Origin: Melioribacteraceae bacterium
Lineage (GTDB): Bacteria > Bacteroidota > Ignavibacteria > Ignavibacteriales > Melioribacteraceae
Reading direction: 5' to 3'
DNA: 60,124 bases
NCBI GenBank assembly: GCA_016342755.1
Contig: JAEINS010000027.1
Span: forward strand, 1 to 60,124
Position 1 is the stretch's first letter. The number at the start of each line of letters is the position of its first letter. Both the position numbers and the translations under genes were made by a program. Below the pieces are notes generated by a model. It made no database searches. It was not told where the DNA came from and was given only the letters and a program-made list of their open reading frames with translations. Below are positions 17,144-36,283 of the stretch, piece after piece.

Positions 17144-18457
17144 TTGATACTTCATAAAGAAAATACAAATAGTTACGAACCTTTTTACAAGTTACTTCAG
17201 GATTATAAAAACATTTCTGAAACTGGTGAACAGGAACTTATATTAGTTACCAATCCTGAAAAACATGACGGAATTAATCTTGTTGAAAAATACTCGCACA
17301 TGTTTCAGAATTTAATTTCATTCGAAAATGAAGTTAGAAGTATTTCTTCGCCGTCGCAATTAGCAGAAAAATTAAAACTGTCTTTAAAACGGATTCTTCC
17401 TGTTAAAGATGCTTCTCTTCTGTTTTTTGATGAATCTTTGGTTTCTCTTAAAGCTATTGGCGCAATTGAAAATGATTTACCCGATAGAATGAATCATTAT
17501 TATAAAGAAGGAATTCTGAATATTCTGTTTGAAGGTGAAAAGTCGATGATTTTACCTGAATTAAACAGTTATAATTCCGATGGCGCAAAACTGAATTATA
17601 TTATTTTTCCGTTTTTCGAAAACACAAAGAAAAAAGGTTTGCTTTGTATTTTATCATCTATTGTTCAGAAAAATTTCAACAATCTGGATAGACAAATTAT
17701 CCAGGTTCTGTTAAATGTTGCTTTAGCAAAAATTGATAAACTTTTTCTTAGAAGTAAACTTAATAGTACAATAGAAGAATTACAGACTTATCAGGCAAAA
17801 CTTTCAAATGATTTTAGACTTGCCGCAATTGGCGAATTAACCGAAGGAATTATAGAAGATATTTCAACTCCGCTGCAGGTTATTATGAGTAATGTTGATT
17901 TAATTGATGTATCTGACGATGACCAGACTGAGGTTAAAAAAATTAAACAGCAGGTTCGTAAAATAAATTCATCTATGAACAGACTTGTAAAGTTTTCAAA
18001 TCTTAATCAGAAGAATATTAAAATACAGCCATGTAATTTTAATAATGTATTAAACGAGTATTATAACCTTGTTAAATCAACTTTAGAAAGTGTTAATTTA
18101 GAATTTGTTTTAGATTTTGATGAAGACTTGCCGTCCATATTAAGTCATCCAAATTATATATTCCAAATATTAACTAACGTTATAGGGCTTATAAAAACTA
18201 ACTCAAAAGGTAACGGCGGCATTATTATACAGACACGCTATATTTCTGATGATGTAGTTTTAAAACTAGTTTCAACAGCCGAACTTAAATCCTATTCAAA
18301 ATTATTAAAAAATGATTCTAAGAATAGTGATTTGAATATTAAGATTATTGAAAGCCTTATGAATAAACATGAAGGTTCTTTTGAAGTAGAATCATTTCAA
18401 GGCGGCGGTTCAACAATTACTCTTAAGTTTCCTCTTAAAAGGAAGATTAGAAAATGA
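17144..18457 (+). CDS. GAF-type histidine kinase homologue with degenerate catalytic sites
   Basis: The layout is that of a soluble sensor kinase: a GAF-like sensor (about residues 60-205), a coiled coil, a DHp-like two-helix segment (225-290) and a GHKL-like ATPase remnant (300-430). The key residues are missing. In the H-box 'GELTEGIIEDISTPLQVIM' the phospho-accepting His is Glu238. The N-box Asn is not evident in 'FQILTNVIGLIKTNS', and no DxGxG G1 box follows; only the final 'GGGSTITLKFPL' resembles the family end. It is therefore probably a pseudokinase acting by binding. It starts with TTG 1 base after the HDOD gene and overlaps the next gene, inside the flagellar operon. Confidence 0.75.
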   Translation: MILHKENTNSYEPFYKLLQDYKNISETGEQELILVTNPEKHDGINLVEKYSHMFQNLISFENEVRSISSPSQLAEKLKLSLKRILPVKDASLLFFDESLVSLKAIGAIENDLPDRMNHYYKEGILNILFEGEKSMILPELNSYNSDGAKLNYIIFPFFENTKKKGLLCILSSIVQKNFNNLDRQIIQVLLNVALAKIDKLFLRSKLNSTIEELQTYQAKLSNDFRLAAIGELTEGIIEDISTPLQVIMSNVDLIDVSDDDQTEVKKIKQQVRKINSSMNRLVKFSNLNQKNIKIQPCNFNNVLNEYYNLVKSTLESVNLEFVLDFDEDLPSILSHPNYIFQILTNVIGLIKTNSKGNGGIIIQTRYISDDVVLKLVSTAELKSYSKLLKNDSKNSDLNIKIIESLMNKHEGSFEVESFQGGGSTITLKFPLKRKIRK

Positions 18458-18999
18458 AATTGAAAGTTCTAATATTAATTATTCTTATTTCTTTTGGTTC
18501 TGCTTTTGCACAAAAAATAGTACCCGGAAATAAAAATGATGTTAATATAAGATCTTATGTTGATAAACAGATTAAAGATGCTGAGAATAAAAATAGCGAT
18601 AAGAAAGTAAGTGTAAATAAAGCTAAAAAAGAATCGGCAATAATTAGTAAAGTATCAATCAATAATTTTTTAGTAAATAACAAAAGTTCATTATTAAAAG
18701 CCTTCTTCTTATTCGATGCATCAATATTGGCAGCAATTGTTATTTTTTGGAGAAGAAGAAATCAAAAAATCAAAGCGTATAAATCTTCAATGGTTTCCGA
18801 TAATATTCAATTAATTAGAGAAGAGAAAATTGGTTTAGAGTATTCTAAAAAAAGCAATAAAAGAAGATCTAAATTATTTGGGAAAGGTTCTTTTAAAGTA
18901 GAAAGCGGAGAATCTATAACCAGACTCGCGAAAAAACTATCCATTTCAAAAGGTGAAGTTCATCTTGCCGCAAAGATGAAAATGTTAGCCAACAGTTAA
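18454..18999 (+). CDS. Membrane protein with C-terminal helix-turn-helix-like motif (SwrB-like)
   Basis: This 181-residue protein has an N-terminal hydrophobic segment that looks like a signal peptide ('LILIILISFGSAFAQ'), a polar stretch, and a second membrane segment (about residues 70-92) followed by basic residues 'WRRRNQKIKAYK'. Its C-terminal tail, 'SITRLAKKLSISKGEVHLAA', resembles the last part of SwrB/DUF6115 proteins ('LGISKGEVELLL'-type). SwrB of B. subtilis lies after sigD and helps activate the export apparatus. The same relative place (after fliA, inside the operon) supports the comparison, but overall identity is low. The call is tentative. Confidence 0.5.
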   Translation: MKLKVLILIILISFGSAFAQKIVPGNKNDVNIRSYVDKQIKDAENKNSDKKVSVNKAKKESAIISKVSINNFLVNNKSSLLKAFFLFDASILAAIVIFWRRRNQKIKAYKSSMVSDNIQLIREEKIGLEYSKKSNKRRSKLFGKGSFKVESGESITRLAKKLSISKGEVHLAAKMKMLANS

Positions 19000-19000
19000 A

Positions 19001-20170
19001 ATGATTAACAGCGTAATGCATAATGTTTTCTTTAGTTCTGAAAACGTAAGAGTTAAAAGTCAGGGTAAAATTGAACTCCGTCCGCAAACAAATTCCATTG
19101 TATTATTAAACATTTTAGATAAAAGCCTTAAGAATTTCCGGTTATTAATTAATGGAAGCGTATTTCAGGCAGAACTTCCCATAAAGGCCGAAACTGGTGA
19201 TGTAGTGCTTGCAAAGGTTTTAAGTCAGAAACCATTAGTACTGGAATTAGCTAATCTTTTAAATCCCAAATTACTTACAAACACTGTTTATAACGATATA
19301 CTAAGCAAATTATCTATAAATGCTTCTGCTACTGCCAAAGAAGTTGTTAAAGAACTTATATCTGAAAAGAAGCCTTTGGTTAAAGGCAAAATGGAACGAA
19401 TCATTAATTACATAGATTCTAACAAGCTGAATCATGATGATTTACAGATCAATTTTTTAATTAACTTTTTTTGGCATTCGTCTGATAATTCTGAAGAAAT
19501 GCTGGAAAGACTTAACGATATATTTGATATAACTTTTACCAGGCTTGCAAGTAAGATATATGAATACACAATATTAGCCAATCGATTATATCCAACCAAC
19601 TCTTTCACACAAAAACTAAATAATGTCTTTGTATTTGATTACAAAAAATTTGAAATAGATAAAGATGATTTGCCCGTGAAAAATAAATCGGAAGCTATTC
19701 CAGAATTATTTGCTTTGCTGGAACTGACTGACAGCTTATTACCACACGAGAAAAAGGAACTAAAGCAGCTTTTACTAAAGTATATATTACAGAAATCAAT
19801 TTACCAGTATTATAATTTTCATCCGGAATTCACAATATTAAAACTTCCAAAAGAATTTCATCTAACACTTTTTAAGACAGAAATAAAACACTCTTACGGA
19901 GGTGAAGTAATAATAGCGTTATTGCTTAATTTAATGACTCCGAAATATGGAAGCATAATATTTAAGGGCAATTATTCGATGTTCAGATTAAACGGAGAAA
20001 TTTTATCTGACATAAATTCTATTGGACAAATAGATAAAATTATAAAAAAAATGAATGAAGAAATATCGGAAGAACTTGATATCGATTCAAAAATTTTCAC
20101 ATCCTTATTAAAAGAAAATATAGCTGTTGAAGATATAGGCAAAACCGGCAATATCAATTTTATGGCATAG
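19001..20170 (+). CDS. Putative second FliK-like hook-length/flagellar protein
   Basis: I see no clear full-length match. The N-terminus has a beta-rich region ('FRLLINGSVFQAELPIKAE', 'GDVVLAKVLSQKPLVLEL') like the N-terminal domain of some FliK proteins. The C-terminal 120 residues ('FTILKLPKEFHLTLF', 'GGEVIIALLLNLMTPKYGSI', 'MFRLNGEILSDI') follow the strand-loop-strand pattern of the FliK C-terminal domain. The central part is helical. At 389 residues it lacks the Lys/Glu-rich ruler of the fliK at the window's left edge. Its place before flgF-flgG fits a flagellar role. Confidence 0.45.
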   Translation: MINSVMHNVFFSSENVRVKSQGKIELRPQTNSIVLLNILDKSLKNFRLLINGSVFQAELPIKAETGDVVLAKVLSQKPLVLELANLLNPKLLTNTVYNDILSKLSINASATAKEVVKELISEKKPLVKGKMERIINYIDSNKLNHDDLQINFLINFFWHSSDNSEEMLERLNDIFDITFTRLASKIYEYTILANRLYPTNSFTQKLNNVFVFDYKKFEIDKDDLPVKNKSEAIPELFALLELTDSLLPHEKKELKQLLLKYILQKSIYQYYNFHPEFTILKLPKEFHLTLFKTEIKHSYGGEVIIALLLNLMTPKYGSIIFKGNYSMFRLNGEILSDINSIGQIDKIIKKMNEEISEELDIDSKIFTSLLKENIAVEDIGKTGNINFMA

Positions 20171-26898: not shown

Positions 26899-28149
26899 AT
26901 GAGAGTAACCGATTTATCAATTCAGCAGACATATCTAACAAATTATCAGAAGAATAAAAGAACTTTACAAAATATTCAGCAACAGATAACAACACAAAGT
27001 AAAGTTAATACACCTTCCGATAATCCTTTAGCAAATTCAAAAATATTGCGCTTTGGTAATCAGTTAGGAAATTTTAATACTTATAAAAATAATATAAATA
27101 CATCAATTGGATTTGTTCAGAATACTTTGCTGCCTATGGAAGGCATGCAAAATGAAATGAATAAAGTAATAATAGATTTAACGTCTATGAATAATGCTGT
27201 TGTAGATGATAAACTTGATATATATGCACAGAACCTGGATTTAACATTAGCAACTTTATTAGACTTTGCAAATGCCGAGTATGACGGCAGATATGTTTTT
27301 GGGGGAAACGATAGCTCCTCTAAACCGTTCGATTACAATGCGGCAGGTGATAAGGTAGAAGCTAAATTACCCAATATTGGCGGAGAGCATCTTGCCAGAA
27401 TTTCAAAAAACAGCTCTCAAAAAATTAATATTACCGGCCAGGAAATGTTTCAGTCTGTTTATGAACAGAGAGGAAATCTGGATTCTACTTCGGCAATTGG
27501 ATCGGTGGATACAAGTAACGAAACAATTCTTGATGCCGATGGAAATGAATATACCTTAACATATAACTATACAAAAACTGCTGCAAACACTTATGATTTT
27601 AGTTATGATATTACAGATTCAACCGCGGCTTCAGTTGGTTCGGGAACCGTAAACGATCTGGTTTTTAATCCCGCATCTTCCAAATTAACTAGTATAAATG
27701 GCGGTAATCCTGAAGAAATAGAAATAAATATACCTGGAAACAAAATTGAGTTTCAATTTGATTTGACTAATATTAAAGAGAATACTAACCCGACTAATTT
27801 AAATTTAAATAAGAATCAGGATGCTGATATTTTTAATATTTTAATTTCTATGAAAAATAAATTAAACAATGGGGAGCGTCCTAACGATAATCAAGTTAAG
27901 ATGGTAAATAATTTTATGAATCATCTAACAAATAAAATGTCTGAGGTTGGAAATATTAGTAACAAACTTTTGGATGCAGCTGAATTAATTGATTCACAAA
28001 GATTAGCGGTACAGGAATATATGTCTATAGAAAAAGATGTTGATATGGCCGAGGCAATTATCGAATTAGAAACAAGTCAGCATAGTTTGGATATAAATTA
28101 TAAAATATCGAGTATGATATTGCCATCATCACTTTTGGATTACTTATGA
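26899..28149 (+). CDS. flgL: Hook-filament junction protein FlgL (HAP3) with FlaE-like insert
   Basis: FlgL is the second junction protein and has flagellin-like ends: 'RVTDLSIQQTYLTNYQKNKR' with 'INTPSDNPLANSK'-like residues near 37-48, and C-terminal 'AEAIIELETSQHSLDINYKI'. At 416 residues it is longer than the usual 300. The excess is a central domain (about residues 205-292) whose pattern, 'DADGNEYTLTYNYTKTAANT...FSYDI', closely follows the FlaE-like module in this organism's FlgE ('YGDEYKLTTSYEKTGADAW'). It overlaps motA by 4 bases. Confidence 0.93.
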   Translation: MRVTDLSIQQTYLTNYQKNKRTLQNIQQQITTQSKVNTPSDNPLANSKILRFGNQLGNFNTYKNNINTSIGFVQNTLLPMEGMQNEMNKVIIDLTSMNNAVVDDKLDIYAQNLDLTLATLLDFANAEYDGRYVFGGNDSSSKPFDYNAAGDKVEAKLPNIGGEHLARISKNSSQKINITGQEMFQSVYEQRGNLDSTSAIGSVDTSNETILDADGNEYTLTYNYTKTAANTYDFSYDITDSTAASVGSGTVNDLVFNPASSKLTSINGGNPEEIEINIPGNKIEFQFDLTNIKENTNPTNLNLNKNQDADIFNILISMKNKLNNGERPNDNQVKMVNNFMNHLTNKMSEVGNISNKLLDAAELIDSQRLAVQEYMSIEKDVDMAEAIIELETSQHSLDINYKISSMILPSSLLDYL

Positions 28150-28925
28150 TAAATAAGCTTGGTGGATTTAGCGGATTATTTTTAGGACTTGCAGCAATAT
28201 TTGGAGCCTTTTTTCTTGAAGGCGGATCAGCAAAAACGCTTTTTTTAACTGCTCCGCTTTTAATTGTTTTTGGAGGTACTTTTGCTGCAACTATAATTGG
28301 ATTTGGATGGGATAAATTTTCAAGGATTTTAGAGTTAAGCAGAATGGCTTATTTTCCAAGAAATTATGATCTTAAAAAACTAATTCTCACATTTGTAGAT
28401 TTATCAATAGTAGGCAGGCAAGAAGGATTTTTAGCTTTAGAAAAACAATTAGATGAAATGGAATATAACTTTCCCAAAAAAATGATTCGTTTTTTATTGG
28501 ATGGTCACGACTCAGAAGCTTTAGAAAATATTGCTTATACTGAGATAAACGCAATGCAGGACAGACATTTTTCAAATATTTCTCTTTTTTCTAAAATGGG
28601 AGGTTACGCGCCAACAATGGGTATTATTGGAACTGTAATGGGTTTAATAATGACTTTAGCAAATGTGGGTGCGGATCCAAACGAGTTAATAAGAAATATT
28701 GCAACAGCATTTATAGCAACTTTATGGGGGATATTGTCGGCAAATTTAATTTGGTTACCCATTGCTGATAGATTAAAACAATGTCACATAGAAGAGAAAT
28801 ATATGATGGAGATTACTTTGGAGGGGGTTTTGGTTCTACAAAGTGGAGAGATTCCGTCAATAATCAAGATGAGACTGATCAGTATGTTGTCTCAAAGAGA
28901 TCAAGAAGAACTAATAAAACGATAA
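28146..28925 (+). CDS. motA: Flagellar stator protein MotA, first copy (short PomA-like type)
   Basis: MotA forms the ion channel ring of the stator. Four membrane helices are visible. Family elements: 'LIVFGGTFAATIIGF', 'ARQEGFLALEKQLDEM'-like (with Gly-Arg-Gln), 'GGYAPTMGIIGTVMGLIMTL' and 'IATAFIATLWGILSANLIWL'. It ends 'ITLEGVLVLQSGEIPSIIKM' as in MotA and PomA. At 259 residues it belongs to the shorter PomA/B. subtilis type, unlike the second MotA at 30992. Its last 145 bases overlap the annotated start of motB. Confidence 0.93.
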   Translation: MINKLGGFSGLFLGLAAIFGAFFLEGGSAKTLFLTAPLLIVFGGTFAATIIGFGWDKFSRILELSRMAYFPRNYDLKKLILTFVDLSIVGRQEGFLALEKQLDEMEYNFPKKMIRFLLDGHDSEALENIAYTEINAMQDRHFSNISLFSKMGGYAPTMGIIGTVMGLIMTLANVGADPNELIRNIATAFIATLWGILSANLIWLPIADRLKQCHIEEKYMMEITLEGVLVLQSGEIPSIIKMRLISMLSQRDQEELIKR

Positions 28926-29605
28926 GAGCTGATAGTCCTGAAAAGGATGAACAGCATGATAAAGACAGATATTTATTAACTTATGCTGATCTTATTACAC
29001 TTTTATTAGGTCTTTTTATTCTGCTGTATGCAACTTCTAGTATTGATAATGAAAAATACCAGGAAATGCAATCGGCATTTGGAAATCTGTTTGGTGTTCA
29101 AAATAAATTAAAAGAACTACCAAAAGAAGGATTTATAATTACAAAGGAAAATGTTTTTCCTATAAACAGGACAAAAAATATTTTGCAGAGTTTAATTGAT
29201 TCAAGTAACTTATCGCAAAGCATTAATTTAACTTATAATGATAGAGGAATTACAATAAGTATTTTGGAAGATATAATTTTTAGTTCGGGTGAAGCTGAAT
29301 TAAAAACTGAATCTCAAAGACTGCTTAAAGATCTTGCAAAAATTATAAAAGAATTACCAAACGAAGTCAGAATAGAAGGACATACAGATAATTTGCCAAT
29401 AAATAGTACAAGATATCCATCAAACTGGCATTTATCAGTAGAAAGAGCAACAAATACAGCATATTATTTAATGGAAAATGAAGGTATAGATCCGGCAAAA
29501 GTTTCAATTGTAGGATTCTCATCCTACAAACCACTAGCAAGTAATAGCACACCGGAAGGACGTGCTATGAATAGAAGAGTTGATATAGTAATCTTAAAAC
29601 AATAA
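28781..29605 (+). CDS. motB: Flagellar stator protein MotB, first copy
   Basis: MotB anchors the stator to peptidoglycan. A single membrane helix begins at about residue 65 ('YLLTYADLITLLLGLF') with the ion-binding Asp70, followed by a plug and linker. The OmpA-like domain has 'VRIEGHTDNLPINS', 'LSVERATNTAYYLMENEGI' and 'GRAMNRRVDIVIL'. The only ATG, GTG or TTG in frame before the helix is at 28781, inside motA. The N-terminal 48 codons therefore overlap motA in another frame, an unusually long overlap of 145 bases. A non-canonical start nearer the motA stop is the alternative. Confidence 0.88.
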   Translation: MSHRREIYDGDYFGGGFGSTKWRDSVNNQDETDQYVVSKRSRRTNKTIRADSPEKDEQHDKDRYLLTYADLITLLLGLFILLYATSSIDNEKYQEMQSAFGNLFGVQNKLKELPKEGFIITKENVFPINRTKNILQSLIDSSNLSQSINLTYNDRGITISILEDIIFSSGEAELKTESQRLLKDLAKIIKELPNEVRIEGHTDNLPINSTRYPSNWHLSVERATNTAYYLMENEGIDPAKVSIVGFSSYKPLASNSTPEGRAMNRRVDIVILKQ

Positions 29606-29614
29606 AGAAGAGTT

Positions 29615-29998
29615 ATGAAAATTAGAACACAACAATTTGGTGAAATTGAATTCGAAGAAGAAAAAATAATCGAATTTAAAGACGGAGTTCTTGGTTTCGA
29701 AAATTTAACAAAATTCCTTTTGTTAACTGAAGAAAATAGCATATTTTTCTGGTTAACATCTATAGAGGAACCGGAAATTGTTTTCCCATTATTTCCTGTT
29801 AGTATTTTAATGGAAGAATATCCTGAAAAAGAAAATTTTGAAGCTTTTGGGATTGTGAGACTGGATAAGGAAATTAAAAATATAACTATTAATTTAAAAG
29901 GTCCGGTTTATATCAGTCAGGAACAAAAGCGCGGATATCAAAAAATAATCGATAGTGATAAATACGTAATCGATTATCAATTGTTTGTTGAAAATTAA
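29615..29998 (+). CDS. fliW: Flagellar assembly factor FliW
   Basis: FliW binds flagellin and, when released, binds and blocks CsrA, so it couples export to translation of flagellin mRNA. Signatures are 'FGEIEFEEEKIIEFKDGVLG', 'WLTSIEEPEIVFPLFPVSIL' and 'ITINLKGPVYISQEQKRGYQ'. Length is 127 residues. It lies directly before csrA (10 bases), the standard partner pair. The coupling of the two genes implies CsrA control of at least one flagellar mRNA. Confidence 0.96.
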   Translation: MKIRTQQFGEIEFEEEKIIEFKDGVLGFENLTKFLLLTEENSIFFWLTSIEEPEIVFPLFPVSILMEEYPEKENFEAFGIVRLDKEIKNITINLKGPVYISQEQKRGYQKIIDSDKYVIDYQLFVEN

Positions 29999-30008
29999 GA
30001 GTAAGTTT

Positions 30009-30260
30009 ATGCTTGTACTAAAAAGAAAACAAAACGAAAAAATAAGAATCGGTTCAGACATAGTTGTTAACATTATTTCTGTTTCAGATCATCAGGTTAA
30101 AATAGGAATTGATGCTCCTGATGATGTGAAAATTTTAAGGGAAGAAATTTACGAAAAACTTAAAATTCATGCTGTTGAATCAAGTCAGCAGAGTAAAGAA
30201 ATAAATATTAAAGAACTTTCTAGTCTGGATCTGAATAAAATTAATAAGAAAAATCAGTGA
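30009..30260 (+). CDS. csrA: Translational regulator CsrA
   Basis: CsrA is a small dimeric RNA-binding protein that represses translation by binding GGA motifs near ribosome sites. The core is complete: 'MLVLKRKQNEKIRIGSDIVV', 'VKIGIDAPDDVKILREEIYE'. The ATG at 30009 gives the exact family N-terminus; the earlier TTG at 29985 is inside fliW and is rejected. At 83 residues it has a C-terminal extension of the kind required for FliW contact. A likely target is the flgE leader at 3135-3204, as well as a flagellin gene outside the window. Confidence 0.95.
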   Translation: MLVLKRKQNEKIRIGSDIVVNIISVSDHQVKIGIDAPDDVKILREEIYEKLKIHAVESSQQSKEINIKELSSLDLNKINKKNQ

Positions 30261-30982
30261 TAGATAATAATAAAAAAATTAAAATACTTGTAGTTGATGA
30301 TTCCGATATAATACAGGAATCGTTAAAAAACTTATTTGAAAACTACAGTTTTGAAGTCTATATTTGTGCTGATGGTCTCGAAGGAATTAAAGTAGCTACA
30401 GAAATGCAGCCCGATTTAATTTTTCTCGATTTAATGATGCCTAATCTGGACGGCATTAAAATGCTTCAGGTTAAAAAAGTTATAAAGGATATTGAAGCTA
30501 TTCCTGTAGTAGTAATTAGCGCAAATACTGCCAGAAGAAATGTTTTAGCGGCAATGGAAGCCGGAGCGGATAAAGTAATTTCTAAACCGATTAAAAAAGA
30601 AATTGTAATAAAATGTGTTAACGAGATTTTAGGAACTGATTTTCATTCAAATCATACCGGAGTTGGAACAAATATTAGCCGCGATGAAAATAATGAGATA
30701 AAAGATAAACTGGTTGAGTTCTTTCTAAATTCGTTTCCCGCAAAAAAACATAAAATTATGCTTGCTCTCAGATCAAAGGATCAGGCAATATTAAAGAATG
30801 TAGTACACGAGATTAAAGGTGCCGGTGGAACTATGGGGTACCCAAAACTTACAGAACTGAGTGCTGAAATACATGACCGTGAAATTAATTCTGCTACTGA
30901 TTGGGCATTTACAGAATTTAAAGTAAATGAAATTTCGCAGTTAGTGATGCAAATAGAAGAAAATTTTAAAAACAAAAAATAG
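30257..30982 (+). CDS. Response regulator receiver fused to HPt domain
   Basis: A receiver domain (residues about 8-125) with phospho-acceptor Asp58 in 'LIFLDLMMPNLDG' and the conserved 'SKPIKKE' Lys is followed by an HPt domain with His184 in 'NVVHEIKGAGGTMGYPKL'. The protein can thus receive a phosphoryl group and pass it on within one chain, as an intermediate in a phosphorelay. There is no DNA-binding output. The start is GTG, overlapping the csrA stop by 4 bases. It precedes the second stator pair. Its partners may be the other receivers and the PAS kinase downstream. Confidence 0.88.
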   Translation: MIDNNKKIKILVVDDSDIIQESLKNLFENYSFEVYICADGLEGIKVATEMQPDLIFLDLMMPNLDGIKMLQVKKVIKDIEAIPVVVISANTARRNVLAAMEAGADKVISKPIKKEIVIKCVNEILGTDFHSNHTGVGTNISRDENNEIKDKLVEFFLNSFPAKKHKIMLALRSKDQAILKNVVHEIKGAGGTMGYPKLTELSAEIHDREINSATDWAFTEFKVNEISQLVMQIEENFKNKK

Positions 30983-30991
30983 ACAAAAGAT

Positions 30992-31843
30992 ATGTTTATA
31001 ATAATTGGTGCTGTGGTAGTATTAGCTAGTATGATGGGCGGTTTTATGATGGCTGGTGGACAGCCTGCTGTACTTCTTCAATGGTCAGAATTTATAGTAA
31101 TTGGTGGTGTCGGATTTGGTGCTTTAATGATAATGGTTCCAATGCCCACTATTGTTAAGATTTTTGGATATATACCTAAGGCTATGGGGCATAAACATGT
31201 TCATACACATGATAATCTTGATTTATTAAAGGCATTTTATGAGCTCTTTTTATTAGCTCAAAGAGATGGTCTTCTCGCAATTGAAAAGCATATCGAAAAA
31301 CCTGAAGCTAGTGATATATTTTCTAAAAGCCCTATATTAATTGCAAATACATCTGCTGTAACATATGTTTGTGATACTTTAAAAGTTATGCTCTCAGGAG
31401 GTGTTCCTCCTCATGAAGTAGAAGCACTAATGGATATTGAAATTGAAACATATGAAGCTGAACATATGGCTAATGCCCATTTAGTTGCCAAAGTTGGAGA
31501 TGGCTTTCCGGCAATTGGTATTGTTGCGGCTGTTCTTGGTATTATTATTACAATGGGTAGTATTAATGATGGTGCCGAAGCTGTTGGGCATCACGTTGCA
31601 GCTGCTCTGGTTGGAACTTTTCTTGGAATTTTATTATCGTATGGATTTGTTGGTCCTTTAGCTACAAATATTGAACATATGATTTTAGATAATGTCAGGT
31701 TTATGGAAACTATTAAATCTTGTGTTATAGCTTATGCAAAAGGAAACCCTCCAATTGTAGCTGTAGAAATAGGAAGAAGAACGTTGTTTTCTGATTCTAG
31801 ACCAAGTTTTGGTGAATTAGAAGCATACTTGAGAGGTAAATAA
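30992..31843 (+). CDS. motA: Flagellar stator protein MotA, second copy (long type)
   Basis: This 283-residue MotA is of the longer E. coli type: it begins 'FIIIGAVVVLASMMGGFMMA' with 'GGQPAVLLQWSEFIVIGG' and has 'PKAMGHKHVHTHDNLDLLKA' at residues 63-82. It also has 'ANTSAVTYVCDTLKVMLSGG', 'VGDGFPAIGIVAAVLGIIIT' and 'HHVAAALVGTFLGILLSYGF'. It is clearly distinct from the first MotA at 28146. It is joined end to end with its own MotB. Two stator types on one motor are known in some bacteria, where one is H+ and the other Na+ driven. Confidence 0.93.
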   Translation: MFIIIGAVVVLASMMGGFMMAGGQPAVLLQWSEFIVIGGVGFGALMIMVPMPTIVKIFGYIPKAMGHKHVHTHDNLDLLKAFYELFLLAQRDGLLAIEKHIEKPEASDIFSKSPILIANTSAVTYVCDTLKVMLSGGVPPHEVEALMDIEIETYEAEHMANAHLVAKVGDGFPAIGIVAAVLGIIITMGSINDGAEAVGHHVAAALVGTFLGILLSYGFVGPLATNIEHMILDNVRFMETIKSCVIAYAKGNPPIVAVEIGRRTLFSDSRPSFGELEAYLRGK

Positions 31844-32649
31844 TGGCTGATGGATCAGAAGCTGGCGGCGGCGAAGAGCCGATAATAATAAAAAAAGGGA
31901 AAAAAGGAGGAGATGCTCCTCATGGTGGTGCATGGAAAGTTGCTTATGCTGATTTTGTTACTGCTATGATGGCACTTTTTATTGTGCTTTGGATTTTAGG
32001 TCAGAGTGAAGAAGTTAAACAAAGTGTTTCGGGCTATTTCCAGGATCCAATTGGGTTTAAAGCCGGTGGCGGTAAGAGTATTATAGATATTGGCAGCGGA
32101 AAAGATAAAGGTAAATATGATACTCCGCCCGGAGGAGAAGCTACGGAAGAAGATATAAAAGCTCTTGAAACAAAAAGATTATCCCAAATGGGTAACGATA
32201 TTAAAGAAAGTTTATCAAAAAGTGCTGAATTCCAAAATATAGCGGCACAAGTTGAATTTGAAGTTGTTGATGAAGGCTTAAGAATAGAAATTATGGATTC
32301 ACAAAGCGATGCGTTTTTCCAAATTGGTACTGCTGAATTAAGAGGGGGTGCTGATAAAATGCTGGGATTAATTGGAGCTGAACTAGGAAAGCTAAACAAT
32401 AAAATAGCAGTTGAAGGTCATACAGATGCCAGACCATTTCCCGGCGGTGCGTATGGATATTCAAATTATGAACTAAGCTGTGATAGAGCCAATGCGGCAA
32501 GACGTTCATTGTTAAAAGGTGGTTTAAACGTTTTGCAGATAGAAGAAATAAAAGGGTGGGCTGATAAAAGACTTAGGATGCCGCAGGATCCTAATAATGT
32601 AATTAACAGAAGAATTAGTATAATTGTTAAATATTCAGAAAACCTATGA
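31843..32649 (+). CDS. motB: Flagellar stator protein MotB, second copy
   Basis: The N-terminal basic tail has 'IIIKKGKKGGDAPHGGAWKV', then the membrane helix with Asp37 in 'YADFVTAMMALFIVLWI', close to E. coli MotB. The OmpA-like domain is 'NKIAVEGHTDARPF' with 'SNYELSCDRANAARRSLLKG' and 'NRRISIIVKY'. Length is 268 residues. It shares its first base with the motA stop. Together with the preceding MotA it forms the second stator. The ion used cannot be told from this sequence alone. Confidence 0.93.
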   Translation: MADGSEAGGGEEPIIIKKGKKGGDAPHGGAWKVAYADFVTAMMALFIVLWILGQSEEVKQSVSGYFQDPIGFKAGGGKSIIDIGSGKDKGKYDTPPGGEATEEDIKALETKRLSQMGNDIKESLSKSAEFQNIAAQVEFEVVDEGLRIEIMDSQSDAFFQIGTAELRGGADKMLGLIGAELGKLNNKIAVEGHTDARPFPGGAYGYSNYELSCDRANAARRSLLKGGLNVLQIEEIKGWADKRLRMPQDPNNVINRRISIIVKYSENL

Positions 32650-33044
32650 TGACTCAAAAAATATTAATAGTAGAAGACGATCCTTTTACACAGCAGTTTT
32701 ACACTTATTTGTTTAGTAAAACTGATTATGAAATTATCCAGACAGAAGACGGGGATAAAATTTTACAAATCCTTGATGAAGAGGAAATTACCCTGATTAT
32801 AATGGATATTAACCTTACAAATACGTACTGGGAAGACGAAAAAGTTGACGGTGTATTTATTTCGAAATTTCTAAAAAATAACGAAAGCTATGCAAATATT
32901 CCCATTCTTTTAGTAACTGCTTATCAGAAAAAAACAGGCACTAAAGATATATTTGAAGAAAGTTGTGCCGACGAGTATATTGTAAAACCAATTACAGACT
33001 TTAATGAATTATTGGGCAAAATAAAACAGTTAATAAATGAATAA
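32646..33044 (+). CDS. Stand-alone receiver domain protein
   Basis: This is a single receiver domain of 132 residues with acceptor Asp54 in 'LIIMDINLTNTYW', acidic pair 'EDD' near the start, and Lys in 'YIVKPITDF'. The beta3-alpha3 loop is longer than usual ('NLTNTYWEDEKVDG'), as in some atypical receivers. It is not a clear CheY, since the loop differs. It overlaps motB2 by 4 bases and the next receiver gene by 8. Its likely role is as a diffusible phosphoryl carrier or motor ligand; this is inference. Confidence 0.85.
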   Translation: MMTQKILIVEDDPFTQQFYTYLFSKTDYEIIQTEDGDKILQILDEEEITLIIMDINLTNTYWEDEKVDGVFISKFLKNNESYANIPILLVTAYQKKTGTKDIFEESCADEYIVKPITDFNELLGKIKQLINE

Positions 33045-33714
33045 TGATATTAAAAAAGATAAAGTCCTTATAGTTGAAGATGAGGAAGATACAAGATTTA
33101 TTCTTGAACGTCTTCTTATGAAAAACAACTACGAAGTAAGATCTGCCGAAAACGGAGTTGAAGCTCTAAAACTGCTTGAGAATTTTTTCCCAAAAGTAAT
33201 TGTTGCCGACTGGACAATGCCACAAATGGACGGATTACAATTTTGTGATATTCTAAAAGAACAGGAAAAATATAAACTAATATATTTTATTGTTCTTACG
33301 GCCAGAGCATCATTAAAAGACAGAGTAACAGGACTTGATGTTGGTGCTGATGATTTTCTTGTAAAACCAGTTGAAAACCAGGAATTGCTTGCGAGAATCA
33401 GATCCGGAATAAGAATTCATAATCTTCAGAACGAACTAAAAAGTATTGAGCATAATAAAGCCATAATTGAGCTGGCTTGTACAATTGGTCATCAGTTAAA
33501 TAATCCGTTATCAAGTTTAACAATGTCTTTAAAAAGTCTTGAATCGGAGTTTACCGAAGAGCAGCTTAAAAGTTATGAAGAAGACTTTTATGTAATTAAT
33601 GAGTCAATTGCCAGAATAACCAAACACGTTGATGCGTTAAAAAAATTACAAAATCCTGAAGTAATAGATTACGCCCGGGATAATAAAATGATTAACCTCG
33701 ATAATAATTCTTAA
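33037..33714 (+). CDS. Receiver domain fused to DHp (histidine phosphotransfer) domain without ATPase
   Basis: The receiver (residues 8-128) has Asp58 in 'KVIVADWTMPQMDG' and Lys in 'DDFLVKPVENQ'. A helix then leads to an H-box, 'ACTIGHQLNNPLSSL', with His152. The second DHp helix follows to residue 205, and the protein ends at 225 without any N-, G1- or G2-box, so no ATPase domain. It could dimerise and carry phosphate like Spo0B or ChpT, or be phosphorylated in trans by a kinase core. The next gene begins 42 bases later. Confidence 0.85.
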   Translation: MNNDIKKDKVLIVEDEEDTRFILERLLMKNNYEVRSAENGVEALKLLENFFPKVIVADWTMPQMDGLQFCDILKEQEKYKLIYFIVLTARASLKDRVTGLDVGADDFLVKPVENQELLARIRSGIRIHNLQNELKSIEHNKAIIELACTIGHQLNNPLSSLTMSLKSLESEFTEEQLKSYEEDFYVINESIARITKHVDALKKLQNPEVIDYARDNKMINLDNNS

Positions 33715-33756
33715 CTTTTCGCTTCAACTTTCGATAATTAGTTGAGGTGAAATGAA

Positions 33757-34416
33757 TTGTTAAACGGAATTGTAAATATTAAGACAGATCGGGATTTTGT
33801 AGATCAGAAAAAAGTTTCTGGTTCAAAGAAATTTTTAAATAGGGCTTACAATAACGATTCTTTGGTGAAAGACTCAGTTGTTTTTTCACCCGGAGCAATT
33901 TATTTATCGAAATTAAATTGGAACTTAAAAGAAATCAATTTTGTTTCTGAAGATAAATTTCACTTCGATTTTTTTATTGGTGATATAGAATTTGTAACCG
34001 AGGTAGATCTTTTAAATTTTTATGCTGAATCGCGGCAAAAATATAAGTTAGCCAGACAAATTGAAGAAAATGAAAGTTCCTTAAAAATATTTATAGAACT
34101 ATCGGCTAACAAAATTATTAAACTTGATGACTTGAAAACTAAGCCTATTGAACTAGATTCATTAAATTTTCTATTTAATAGAATTTATGACATGAGGATT
34201 AATTCCAGTATTAATAAGTTTGATGAATTTGTTAATCAAAATATTGCAAGTGATATTTCGTCTGAAATTTTTGATGAGTTAGATTTTATAAACAATGCTA
34301 TTTATAATTTTTTAACAAAAATGGGTAAGTTTACATTTATTAAAAATTATAAATTTGCAAATATAAATGCTTCTCCAATAACAATAGAAAGGATTCTGGC
34401 TTTTAATGCTAAATAA
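33757..34416 (+). CDS. Protein of unknown function between signalling genes
   Basis: I do not recognise this 219-residue protein. It is soluble, mixed alpha/beta, rich in Asn, Lys, Ile and Phe, with a centre like 'FHFDFFIGDIEFVTEVDLLN' and a C-terminal helical half. The start is a TTG with GAGGTGA ending 6 bases before it; the nearby ATG at 33752 runs into a stop after three codons. It overlaps the following PAS kinase by 11 bases, so it is probably part of the same signalling set. No domain or catalytic motif is visible. Confidence 0.6.
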   Translation: MLNGIVNIKTDRDFVDQKKVSGSKKFLNRAYNNDSLVKDSVVFSPGAIYLSKLNWNLKEINFVSEDKFHFDFFIGDIEFVTEVDLLNFYAESRQKYKLARQIEENESSLKIFIELSANKIIKLDDLKTKPIELDSLNFLFNRIYDMRINSSINKFDEFVNQNIASDISSEIFDELDFINNAIYNFLTKMGKFTFIKNYKFANINASPITIERILAFNAK

Positions 34417-36283
34417 GATGTTCGATAATGAAATGTTCAGCCCGAAGTCTTTTTCTTCGCTGCGAGAGTTTAAGTCACTCGAAGAACTTCCAAATACCAA
34501 ACCTTTGGCTCTTGTTGATATTGAAGGAAATATTAAGTTCTCTAATAAATCTTTTGAGAACGCTTTAAAACTTACCGATGGCGATAATTTTTCGAAGCTA
34601 AAATCTGATCCCGACCTTACATCTCTGGTAAGTGAACTTTCGCATAGTAAATACTCAAGTTTCCATACAGAATTTATTGTTTATGATTCTGATAATAAAG
34701 TTTATCATGAGCATTATCTGGATATTGAACGGGTTTTAATAAATTTAAAAGAATTTTTCGTAGTTATATTTACTTCATCAAAGGTTTTTGATAGAATTGA
34801 AAATAGGCTGAACAATTTACACGATGCGTTAGAATATGGAAATGTTCCGGTTATAATAACAGATAATGAAGGGATTATAAACTATATCTCGAAATCATTC
34901 GAGGAAATTACCGGCTTAAACATCGAAAATCTGTATCAGAATCCTATTACTGAAGCGATGAAAAATTTCTTCTCAGAGGATGATATTTTTGTTCTTGAAG
35001 AAGCTATTAAAGAGAATAAAGGATTTGTGAAACTAATTTCCGATCTTTCTGAAAATGGAGAAATTTGGTTTAAGGAAGTAAAATTAAATCCGGTTCAGAA
35101 AAGTGAAGACGAAGAAGTTAGTTTTATTTTAACTGCTCACGATATTACCAGTCATATTCTTAAAAATAGAATATTCAGGAAATCGGAACAGCGGCAAAGA
35201 TCTATTATAAATAATATATCCGATTTACTTTTAATTATTCGCGAAGAAGATAATAATTATATTTTAGAAAACGCAAACGATAATTTCTATAACGATTTTG
35301 ATATTCCAAAAGAAACAGCAATAGAAAATTTAATAAATGAATTTTTACCTGAGGAACTTTACGATTTATTTGCAGAGTCAATTCAAAAGTTTTCTGAAAA
35401 TGAAAGCTGTATAAGATTTAGCTTTTCCGATAGAAGTTTAAAACGCGAATTTCTTTGTAAATTGACTAAAACAAGTGATCCTTACAATAATAATAAACTG
35501 TATATTTTAAGTTTAGCCGATATTACAGAACAATTATTAAGTGAAGAAAAACTTAAAAAAGCTTTTGAAAAAGAGACACAGCTTAATAAACTTAAAACCG
35601 CGTTTTTAGCAAATATGTCTCATGAAATAAGAACTCCTTTAAATGCTATTGTTGGATATTCCGATTTACTTGAGGATGAAATTGAAGATGGTGAAAAAGA
35701 ATCGCTTCAAGAATTAGCCGGATTTTTAAAAGACGGTGTTAAACGACTTCTAAAACTTGTTGATAATATTGTTGAAGTTTCAATCTTGGAATCTGGCGAA
35801 CAAACATTTGACCTTGAAAAATTTAACATTAATTACCTTGTTCATAATTTTTATGAAGCCTCGTATTCAATTGTAAGTAGAAATAATCTTCAATATTTAA
35901 TTGAGCTGGAAGAAAAACCTTCGTATATAAATATTGATGAGTTAAAATTCCGTAAAATAATGGATATGCTTGTTGATAATTCTGTTAAGTATAATAAATC
36001 CGGCGGTAAAGTTATTCTTAGAACTGAAACTGTTGGCGATTTTGTTTCGATTGAAATACATGATACAGGAATTGGGATTGAAGATCATAAAATAAAAGAA
36101 ATTTTAGAGCCTTTTGCACAGCAGGAAGAAGAAGGTTACAGAAGAAATTATGAAGGTGCCGGTTTAGGTTTAACAATTGCTTTTAAATTAACTGAACAAT
36201 TGAATGGAATGCTGAATATTAAAAGCAAGGCAAATGAATGGACTTCAATATATTTAACATTTCCTATTTTAAAAATGCAGTAA
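34406..36283 (+). CDS. Cytoplasmic PAS-domain sensor histidine kinase
   Basis: This 625-residue protein has three PAS-like segments (about 20-125, 145-255 and 270-385). The second is the clearest ('VPVIITDNEGIINYISKSFE', 'EITGL'). A complete kinase core follows: H-box His406 in 'FLANMSHEIRTPLNAIVGYS', N-box 'MLVDNSVKYNKSGG', G1 'IHDTGIGIED', F-box 'LEPFAQQEE', G2 'GAGLGLTIA'. No membrane segment is present. It has no receiver of its own, so it may feed the separate receivers upstream. It is the last gene of the motility block; the next gene is 94 bases away. Confidence 0.9.
   Translation: MLNKMFDNEMFSPKSFSSLREFKSLEELPNTKPLALVDIEGNIKFSNKSFENALKLTDGDNFSKLKSDPDLTSLVSELSHSKYSSFHTEFIVYDSDNKVYHEHYLDIERVLINLKEFFVVIFTSSKVFDRIENRLNNLHDALEYGNVPVIITDNEGIINYISKSFEEITGLNIENLYQNPITEAMKNFFSEDDIFVLEEAIKENKGFVKLISDLSENGEIWFKEVKLNPVQKSEDEEVSFILTAHDITSHILKNRIFRKSEQRQRSIINNISDLLLIIREEDNNYILENANDNFYNDFDIPKETAIENLINEFLPEELYDLFAESIQKFSENESCIRFSFSDRSLKREFLCKLTKTSDPYNNNKLYILSLADITEQLLSEEKLKKAFEKETQLNKLKTAFLANMSHEIRTPLNAIVGYSDLLEDEIEDGEKESLQELAGFLKDGVKRLLKLVDNIVEVSILESGEQTFDLEKFNINYLVHNFYEASYSIVSRNNLQYLIELEEKPSYINIDELKFRKIMDMLVDNSVKYNKSGGKVILRTETVGDFVSIEIHDTGIGIEDHKIKEILEPFAQQEEEGYRRNYEGAGLGLTIAFKLTEQLNGMLNIKSKANEWTSIYLTFPILKMQ

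Follow-up and report, generated by a model that had tools for sequence, protein, structure and literature searches.

A candidate phosphorelay encoded beside a second stator pair in the flagellar operon of Ignavibacteriales

Signalling genes at the end of the flagellar operon

The stretch of DNA analysed here (hereafter the window) is 60,124 nucleotides long and represents positions 1–60,124 of contig JAEINS010000027.1 from the genome of a Melioribacteraceae bacterium (GCA_016342755.1; 4.73 Mb, 56 contigs). At the end of its flagellar operon it carries a set of signalling genes together with a second pair of stator genes, all on the + strand. The first gene of the set (30257–30982) codes for REC-HPt, a protein with a receiver (D58) and an HPt domain (H184), for which both Pfam families scored above cut-off (Response_reg 84.9 bits; Hpt 30.9 bits, cut-off 24.6). 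It is followed by motA2 (30992–31843), a second stator channel gene of the NCBIfam TIGR03818 type (321.5 bits, cut-off 303.8), and by motB2 (31843–32649), the second stator anchor gene (Pfam MotB_plug and OmpA). Next is a lone receiver (lone REC, 32646–33044, D54) with Response_reg as the sole Pfam family above cut-off and with a long loop after the strand of the phospho-Asp. REC-DHp (33037–33714) combines a receiver (D58) with a DHp helix hairpin (H152) and a conserved C-terminal tail; Pfam recognises Response_reg and HisKA (27.1 bits, cut-off 26.9) and no HATPase family. A protein of 219 amino acids (33757–34416) matches no Pfam or NCBIfam family. The last gene (34406–36283) codes for a PAS histidine kinase (H406), in which Pfam found PAS, HisKA (60.8 bits) and HATPase_c (74.2 bits), but no receiver; its ATP boxes are present.

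An earlier note on this DNA, made from the sequence alone, had described, at 30257–36283, a REC-HPt, a lone receiver with a long loop, a REC-DHp without ATPase domain and with His152, an orphan PAS kinase and, between the last two, an unknown protein. All of these assignments agree with our scans; the position of the His is right by alignment and the loop was seen by eye in 32 of 32 aligned sequences, including that of the window. The second MotA/MotB pair (30992–32649), located between REC-HPt and the lone REC, had been omitted.

The genes are closely packed. From csrA (30009–30260; Pfam CsrA 71.6 bits on 30015–30257, with the ATG at 30009 picked by eye), whose 3′ end overlaps the start of REC-HPt by 4 bases in the window, to the kinase gene, the successive gaps are −4, 9, −1, −4, −8, 42 and −11 bases. 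The corresponding median spacings over 27–31 loci are −1, 9, 1, −4, −4, 53 and −1 bases. These tight gaps suggest that the genes from csrA to the kinase form a single transcription unit. A promoter and terminator scan gave numbers near chance (70 promoter-like sites vs. 64.8 expected; 9 terminator-like sites vs. 5.2) and does not count as evidence.

The genome set comprised 38 genomes, i.e. the genome of the window and 37 relatives, with the order Ignavibacteriales judged from named relatives. Twelve named loci with REC-DHp (61–75% identity) belong to metagenome genomes labelled Ignavibacteria, Ignavibacteriales, Melioribacter(aceae) or Bacteroidetes. FlhA was found in 29 of the 38 genomes; members of two families lack it. 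A REC-DHp orthologue is present in 27 genomes at an E-value of 2.8e-74 or better, with the best match in the next genome at 5.4e-34. It occurs in 27 of the 29 genomes with FlhA and in none of the nine without it (Fisher p = 3.4e-7, a value that ignores shared ancestry). The two FlhA genomes without an orthologue are G018 (68% complete), which has the 219-amino-acid protein and the kinase, and G031. TIGR03818 MotA matches were obtained in 28 genomes (27 of them above cut-off), namely in all 27 with REC-DHp and in G018, while G031 is the only one of the 29 FlhA genomes without such a match. The match below cut-off is that of G020, whose copy is cut by a contig end.

The loci of the other 26 genomes were fetched and searched with BLAST (at least 50% coverage and at least 30% identity; 35% and 22%, respectively, for the 219-amino-acid protein). 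This yielded REC-HPt in 23 loci, motA2 and motB2 in 24 each, REC-DHp in 26, the 219-amino-acid protein in 23 and the kinase in 22. By profile search, the 219-amino-acid protein was also found in G011 and, together with the kinase, in G026. A separate lone REC is found in 24 of the 26 loci, the BLAST matches in G004 and G025 being other receiver genes. Misses of REC-HPt and motA2 (G004, G020, G021) sit at contig ends, and motA2 is present at another place in G004 and G021. Three families of the order share the arrangement, mostly with the same gene order, which is more than chance. In four genomes of one family (f2) the set is split; the genes of the 219-amino-acid protein and the kinase stay adjacent in all four. 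In D96SM.bin.9, two contigs (L030, L031) each carry REC, REC-DHp, the 219-amino-acid protein and the kinase, representing either a duplicate set or a mixed bin.

Active-site residues were counted for each protein in alignments that include the window sequence, after omission of duplicate loci (L021, L022, L032) and a partial kinase (L025). The kinase retains the phospho-His in 31 of 32 sequences, two of which are doubtful orthologues (L048, L058). The residue after it is Glu in 32/32, and the listed ATP-box residues are present in 32/32 except for a second N-box residue, as in HisKA kinases. REC-HPt has the receiver Asp in 29/29 sequences and the HPt His in all 28 with letters at this position, as in phosphotransfer proteins. 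In the G008 sequence (L046:6199–6930) a frame change, either genuine or a sequencing error, divides its gene directly behind the receiver, and the HPt domain continues in another frame. The lone REC has its phospho-Asp in 32/32 sequences. Because of the co-occurrence with FlhA, the conserved gene order and the intact active sites, it is well supported that these genes constitute a flagellum-linked signalling set.

REC-DHp and its wider family

Both phosphorylation sites of REC-DHp are invariant in 36 aligned sequences. One gap in two receiver columns stems from the REC-DHp of L038, aligned as a shortened open reading frame. The residue directly after the phospho-His (H+1) is Lys in 14 sequences, Gln in 13, Asn in six, Glu in two and Arg in one, and hence non-acidic in 34 of 36, while H+4 is Asn in all 36. 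For four HisKA proteins, the part of the study by Willett and Kirby (PMC3510030) considered here states that the acid after the His is required for the kinase activity and dispensable for that of the phosphatase, that Gln at this position abolishes the kinase activity of CrdS, and that Thr or Asn at H+4 is required for phosphatase activity only. Read by this rule, most flagellar REC-DHp proteins have lost the kinase residue along with the kinase domain, and all of them still have both the His and the residue for phosphatase activity. A search of 12 members for a CA (ATPase) domain yielded no HATPase family at E-values up to 0.1; a receiver and HisKA were matched in all 12. REC-DHp is almost certainly not an autokinase.

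The AlphaFold model of the window protein (225 amino acids) has a mean predicted local distance difference test score (pLDDT) of 80.7 and a predicted template modelling score (pTM) of 0.63, with residues 91–105 below 50. It features a receiver, a long helix (114–171), a second helix (181–202) and, with moderate confidence, a C-terminal strand pair; an ATPase domain is absent. The 50 Foldseek matches listed for this model are to receiver domains, nearly all aligned over the receiver part only. When the DHp half alone was compared with solved structures, no kinase was among the four rows obtained (E-value 0.28 or worse).

Spo0B and ChpT keep a degenerate ATPase domain, and PhyT is not known to have a receiver in front of its DHp. 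With the Spo0B/ChpT/PhyT type, REC-DHp shares a conserved DHp His and the absence of a functional kinase domain. Only about 23 residues follow the DHp in the model, and the degenerate CA-like domain of this type is not found; REC-DHp is therefore likened to these phosphotransferases in its predicted way of working and not made a member of the type. From the relays formed by Spo0B, ChpT or PhyT-PhyK it differs in the receiver fused in front and in the location of the set among flagellar genes. Published relays with a kinase-dead DHp protein include those of PhyT (PMC5898713) and PhyK/MrrA (PMC5964349). As far as the consulted parts of these two articles go, PhyT/SdrG, PhyK/MrrA and Spo0B/Spo0F resemble the present set in having a DHp with a conserved His, no kinase action, a single-domain receiver and a relay spread over several genes. 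PhyT keeps a degenerate ATPase domain according to part of its description (PMC5898713), whereas the CA domain of REC-DHp is wholly absent. The order of receiver, helical linker and DHp is like that of the LvrB-type Rec-controlled histidine kinases (Rec-DHp-CA), as outlined in part of PMC13269768. Unlike these, REC-DHp has no CA domain after the DHp, and the acid for autophosphorylation is missing in the 34 sequences mentioned above.

The genome of the window codes for a second REC-DHp (contig 7, L104:4579–5247; 222 amino acids), which is 32% identical to the flagellar copy. Its gene overlaps that of a HAMP-GAF hybrid kinase with a C-terminal receiver, and a lone receiver gene is located on the far side of the kinase gene. 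Such a paralogue was found in 36 of the 38 genomes at E-values up to 1e-30 (28/29 with FlhA, 8/9 without; Fisher p = 0.42), the weakest matches being those in G031 (42%) and G020 (partial). In 29 of 30 loci read (L124–L153), a kinase gene lies directly upstream. A Pfam scan of two paralogues called no DHp; the aligned His is present in 30/30. Outside the order, homologues with 37–38% identity occur in seven of 296 genomes of the phylum (E-values up to 1e-45). When 43 window genes were used in BLAST against their surroundings, the matches were limited to kinase-like genes and a single ParA/MinD-like gene. A restriction of REC-DHp to flagella was thus rejected.

Across 73 aligned family sequences, the His, the Asp and a Pro of the tail are found in 73/73, a tail Tyr in 71 and a Met in 66. 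Glu at H+1 is seen in 22/30 paralogues and 7/7 sequences from outside the order, compared to 2/36 flagellar ones, and H+4 is Gln in all 30 paralogues instead of the Asn of the flagellar copies. In a single FastTree run, the flagellar proteins clustered with a local support of only 0.65, compared to 1.0 for the paralogues. Since the paralogue is present regardless of flagella and mostly beside a kinase gene, the flagellar REC-DHp seems to be a specialised form of a more widespread module, judged from sequence comparison.

Partner proteins, co-variation and other regulators

The model of the 219-amino-acid protein (pLDDT 73.5, pTM 0.70) consists of a beta sheet and helices, preceded by residues 1–41 with low model confidence yet conserved positions. 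A Foldseek search gave no match at an E-value of 0.001 or below. In a VIA search, p32/C1QBP rows lead at Z 4.8 (root mean square deviation 4.7, 100 aligned), which falls in the range that the tool calls ‘common’. Profile comparison with solved structures returned three rows with E-values of 1 or less, the best of them 0.01. Clear matches to this protein number 20 in 296 phylum genomes, all within the order and including the genome of the window; one weak match (E-value 9.5e-4) lies outside. The position of its gene next to that of the kinase suggests that it regulates the latter.

Co-variation was analysed by comparing pairwise distances after subtraction of the trend of csrA, fliW, motA1 and motB1. 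The test covers 21 pairs in related taxa and is exploratory. The test was limited to taxa that possess all eleven genes, 21 and then 19 of 36 rows; neither run included L046 (split REC-HPt), and the second also excluded L048 and L058 for their doubtful kinases. With 21 taxa, the highest-ranking values were 0.64 for REC-HPt/kinase (P = 0.0015), 0.45 for 219-amino-acid protein/kinase (P = 0.0005) and 0.42 for REC-DHp/219-amino-acid protein (P = 0.0005). With 19 taxa, we obtained 0.73 for REC-HPt/kinase (P = 0.0005), 0.41 for MotB2/REC (P = 0.0025), 0.39 for 219-amino-acid protein/kinase (P = 0.0030), 0.39 for REC-DHp/219-amino-acid protein (P = 0.0015) and 0.37 for REC-DHp/kinase (P = 0.0075). 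In this exploratory comparison, the kinase appears tied most strongly to REC-HPt, and the lone REC more weakly to MotB2.

Canonical motor control is already encoded in the genome of the window. Contig 4 carries genes for CheA, CheR, two CheY-like receivers and CheB as well as further flagellar genes, mostly named by eye from translations. A CheZ-like protein on the same contig scored 30.3 bits, just below the Pfam cut-off of 30.7. FliM begins with MAEVLSQSEIDALL, a CheY-binding motif. CheA matches were found in 28 of the 38 genomes; they are absent from two of the 27 with REC-DHp (G020, G025). On these grounds the relay as a replacement for chemotaxis was rejected, and it would therefore be an additional input to the flagellum. 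Also on contig 4, near che and other flagellar genes, a histidine kinase gene (Pfam) adjoins that of an NtrC-type regulator (by eye). G025 (locus L061) lacks the lone REC, and its kinase carries Ile at the position of the phospho-His; REC-HPt, REC-DHp and MotA2/MotB2 are retained. No CheA match was obtained in this genome.

Elsewhere in the flagellar cluster of the window, a conserved pseudo-histidine kinase is encoded at 17144–18457, following the genes of a FliA-like sigma factor and of two HDOD proteins. By eye, its phospho-His position is Glu in 13, Gln in one and His in one of 15 sequences, and the N and G1 boxes look lost; it might be another partner of the relay. Between it and a rod gene lie the genes of two poorly conserved proteins (18454–18999 and 19001–20170), for which no Pfam match above cut-off and no NCBIfam match were obtained. 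Upstream of csrA are the first stator channel gene motA1 (28146–28925; MotA_ExbB 90.7 bits and gene order), the anchor gene motB1 (28781–29605; MotB_plug and OmpA) and fliW (29615–29998; FliW 77.4 bits), all on the + strand. The motB1 coordinates are those of the longest open reading frame, which overlaps motA1 out of frame by 145 bases (28781–28925), similarly to many relatives; the start may be mis-called and the true one may lie later.

A possible dedicated relay and its alternatives

It is likely that the set forms one dedicated pathway. We tentatively propose, at slightly less than an even chance, a flagellum-dedicated phosphorelay that would be made with the second stator and work alongside it. 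The PAS kinase, regulated together with the neighbouring 219-amino-acid protein, would autophosphorylate at H406 and phosphorylate the receiver of REC-HPt. H184 of the HPt domain would then hand the phosphoryl group to the lone REC as the diffusible output; whether the flow takes this path through REC-HPt to the lone REC is in our view evenly balanced. Self-phosphorylation of REC-DHp is excluded from the scheme, because the ATPase domain is absent throughout and the acid after the His in nearly all sequences. Instead its DHp, switched by its own receiver, would dephosphorylate the lone REC or pass the phosphate on, and thereby set the lifetime of the signal, comparable to CheZ for CheY. The likeliest target of the phosphorylated lone REC would be non-transcriptional, i.e. 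the motor or the MotA2/MotB2 stator. Such a target is plausible from the gene position, the presence of MotA2 in the same genomes and the weak co-variation of REC with MotB2, and we regard it as a rather doubtful though real prospect. A more far-reaching version, which we consider unlikely, is that the terminal lone REC acts directly on MotB2/MotA2 and chooses or gates the second stator. The receiver-gated, kinase-dead DHp would then replace CheZ, and the relay would be a second phospho-input acting on torque and not on the switch, ancestral to flagellated Ignavibacteriales.

Several observations weigh against the proposed relay or its target. The MotB2/REC value falls to just 0.30 (P = 0.0225) with 21 taxa, MotA2 is without a clear co-variation link in this test, and at the Bonferroni limit of 0.0024 only REC-HPt/kinase and REC-DHp/219-amino-acid protein pass in both runs. 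The motor already has a canonical chemotaxis input. The best solved-structure match of the lone REC is DivK (E-value 2.5e-14), with the best CheY entry at 2.7e-8. The invariance of His152 would exceed what a pure phosphatase should need. G004 (88% complete) has REC-DHp close to a kinase that retains the His (L054:1–1850); no lone REC was found in the 709 bases before REC-DHp, and the 219-amino-acid protein is found neither between the two nor elsewhere by profile, so some parts are dispensable. The locus of G013 has the 219-amino-acid protein and no kinase match by BLAST, those of G002 and G034 hold only divergent kinases (26% and 28%), and REC-DHp or the 219-amino-acid protein/kinase pair lies outside the operon in G022, G024, G026 and G030.

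It is also conceivable, if somewhat unlikely, that the relay governs flagellar gene expression and not the motor, via an unlinked DNA-binding regulator (e.g. of the NtrC type) or the FliW-CsrA translation switch. The csrA gene ends within 35 bases of the start of REC-HPt in all 28 measured loci and overlaps it in 18, but the spacing to motA2 and motB2 is equally tight. Under another background of the co-variation test, REC and the 219-amino-acid protein each co-vary with CsrA (0.44, P = 0.0005), which points to FliW-CsrA over the stator and tells against a reading in terms of the stator only. A regulator is at hand in the histidine kinase/NtrC-type pair near the che genes, although this regulator already has an adjacent kinase and the set itself has no output domain. 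The lack of a DNA-binding output stated in the earlier note thus holds within the set, while that pair may provide an unlinked DNA-binding partner.

Equally unlikely as the direct action on MotB2/MotA2, in our estimate, is a group of parallel parts in which the kinase serves REC-HPt only, the lone REC is fed by CheA or another kinase, and REC-DHp by a third partner. The co-variation of lone REC and REC-DHp is weak (0.29, P = 0.04 with 19 taxa; 0.19, P = 0.13 with 21), 102 receiver-domain matches in the genome of the window offer other partners, and REC-DHp is found on a different contig from the 219-amino-acid protein and the kinase in G022 and G030. The reduced set of G004 fits this picture as well, whereas the gene order conserved across three families, the joint loss of the lone REC and the kinase His in G025 and the kinase gene adjoining nearly every paralogous REC-DHp argue for a connected pathway. 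Very improbable is a role of REC-DHp as an allosteric partner of the PAS kinase (e.g. in a heterodimer with H152 phosphorylated in trans) instead of a transferase or phosphatase between receivers. H152 is invariant despite the absent CA domain, and REC-DHp co-varies with the kinase and the 219-amino-acid protein as given above for 19 taxa, but by eye the two window proteins differ in their DHp stretches.

DivK, DivL, CckA and ChpT form one signalling network. Similar parts here are the lone REC, closest to DivK among solved structures, and the pseudo-kinase in the flagellar cluster, a resemblance of parts only. The earlier note had called a relay ending at the motor or stators not described. 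The gene set itself was indeed not found among the matches listed from an open-access library, but kindred relays and a route from a kinase via a regulator to FliM have been published. In the section of PMC7036368 consulted, HpaS of Xanthomonas campestris is a non-chemotaxis kinase acting on VemR, a single-domain regulator that binds FliM. That section mentions no HPt or DHp intermediate, unlike the relay proposed here. The Cle proteins of Caulobacter are CheY-like regulators tuning the flagellar motor (PMC5677366); the title of that article ties them to cyclic di-GMP, and its consulted part mentions no linked relay. McvR did not bind FliM, as stated in part of PMC8995066, and HmrABCX is a further published idea close to the proposed relay (PMC11481889).

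Taken together, the comparison delineates a family of REC-DHp proteins that have no ATPase domain. Its flagellar branch, with the kinase residue mostly lost and the phosphatase residue kept, gives a clear and cheap prediction on the uses of a bare DHp. The proposed pathway would provide an order that is represented here mainly by metagenome genomes with a dedicated phosphorelay beside chemotaxis. If the stator is the target, two-component signalling would be tied to torque instead of switching.

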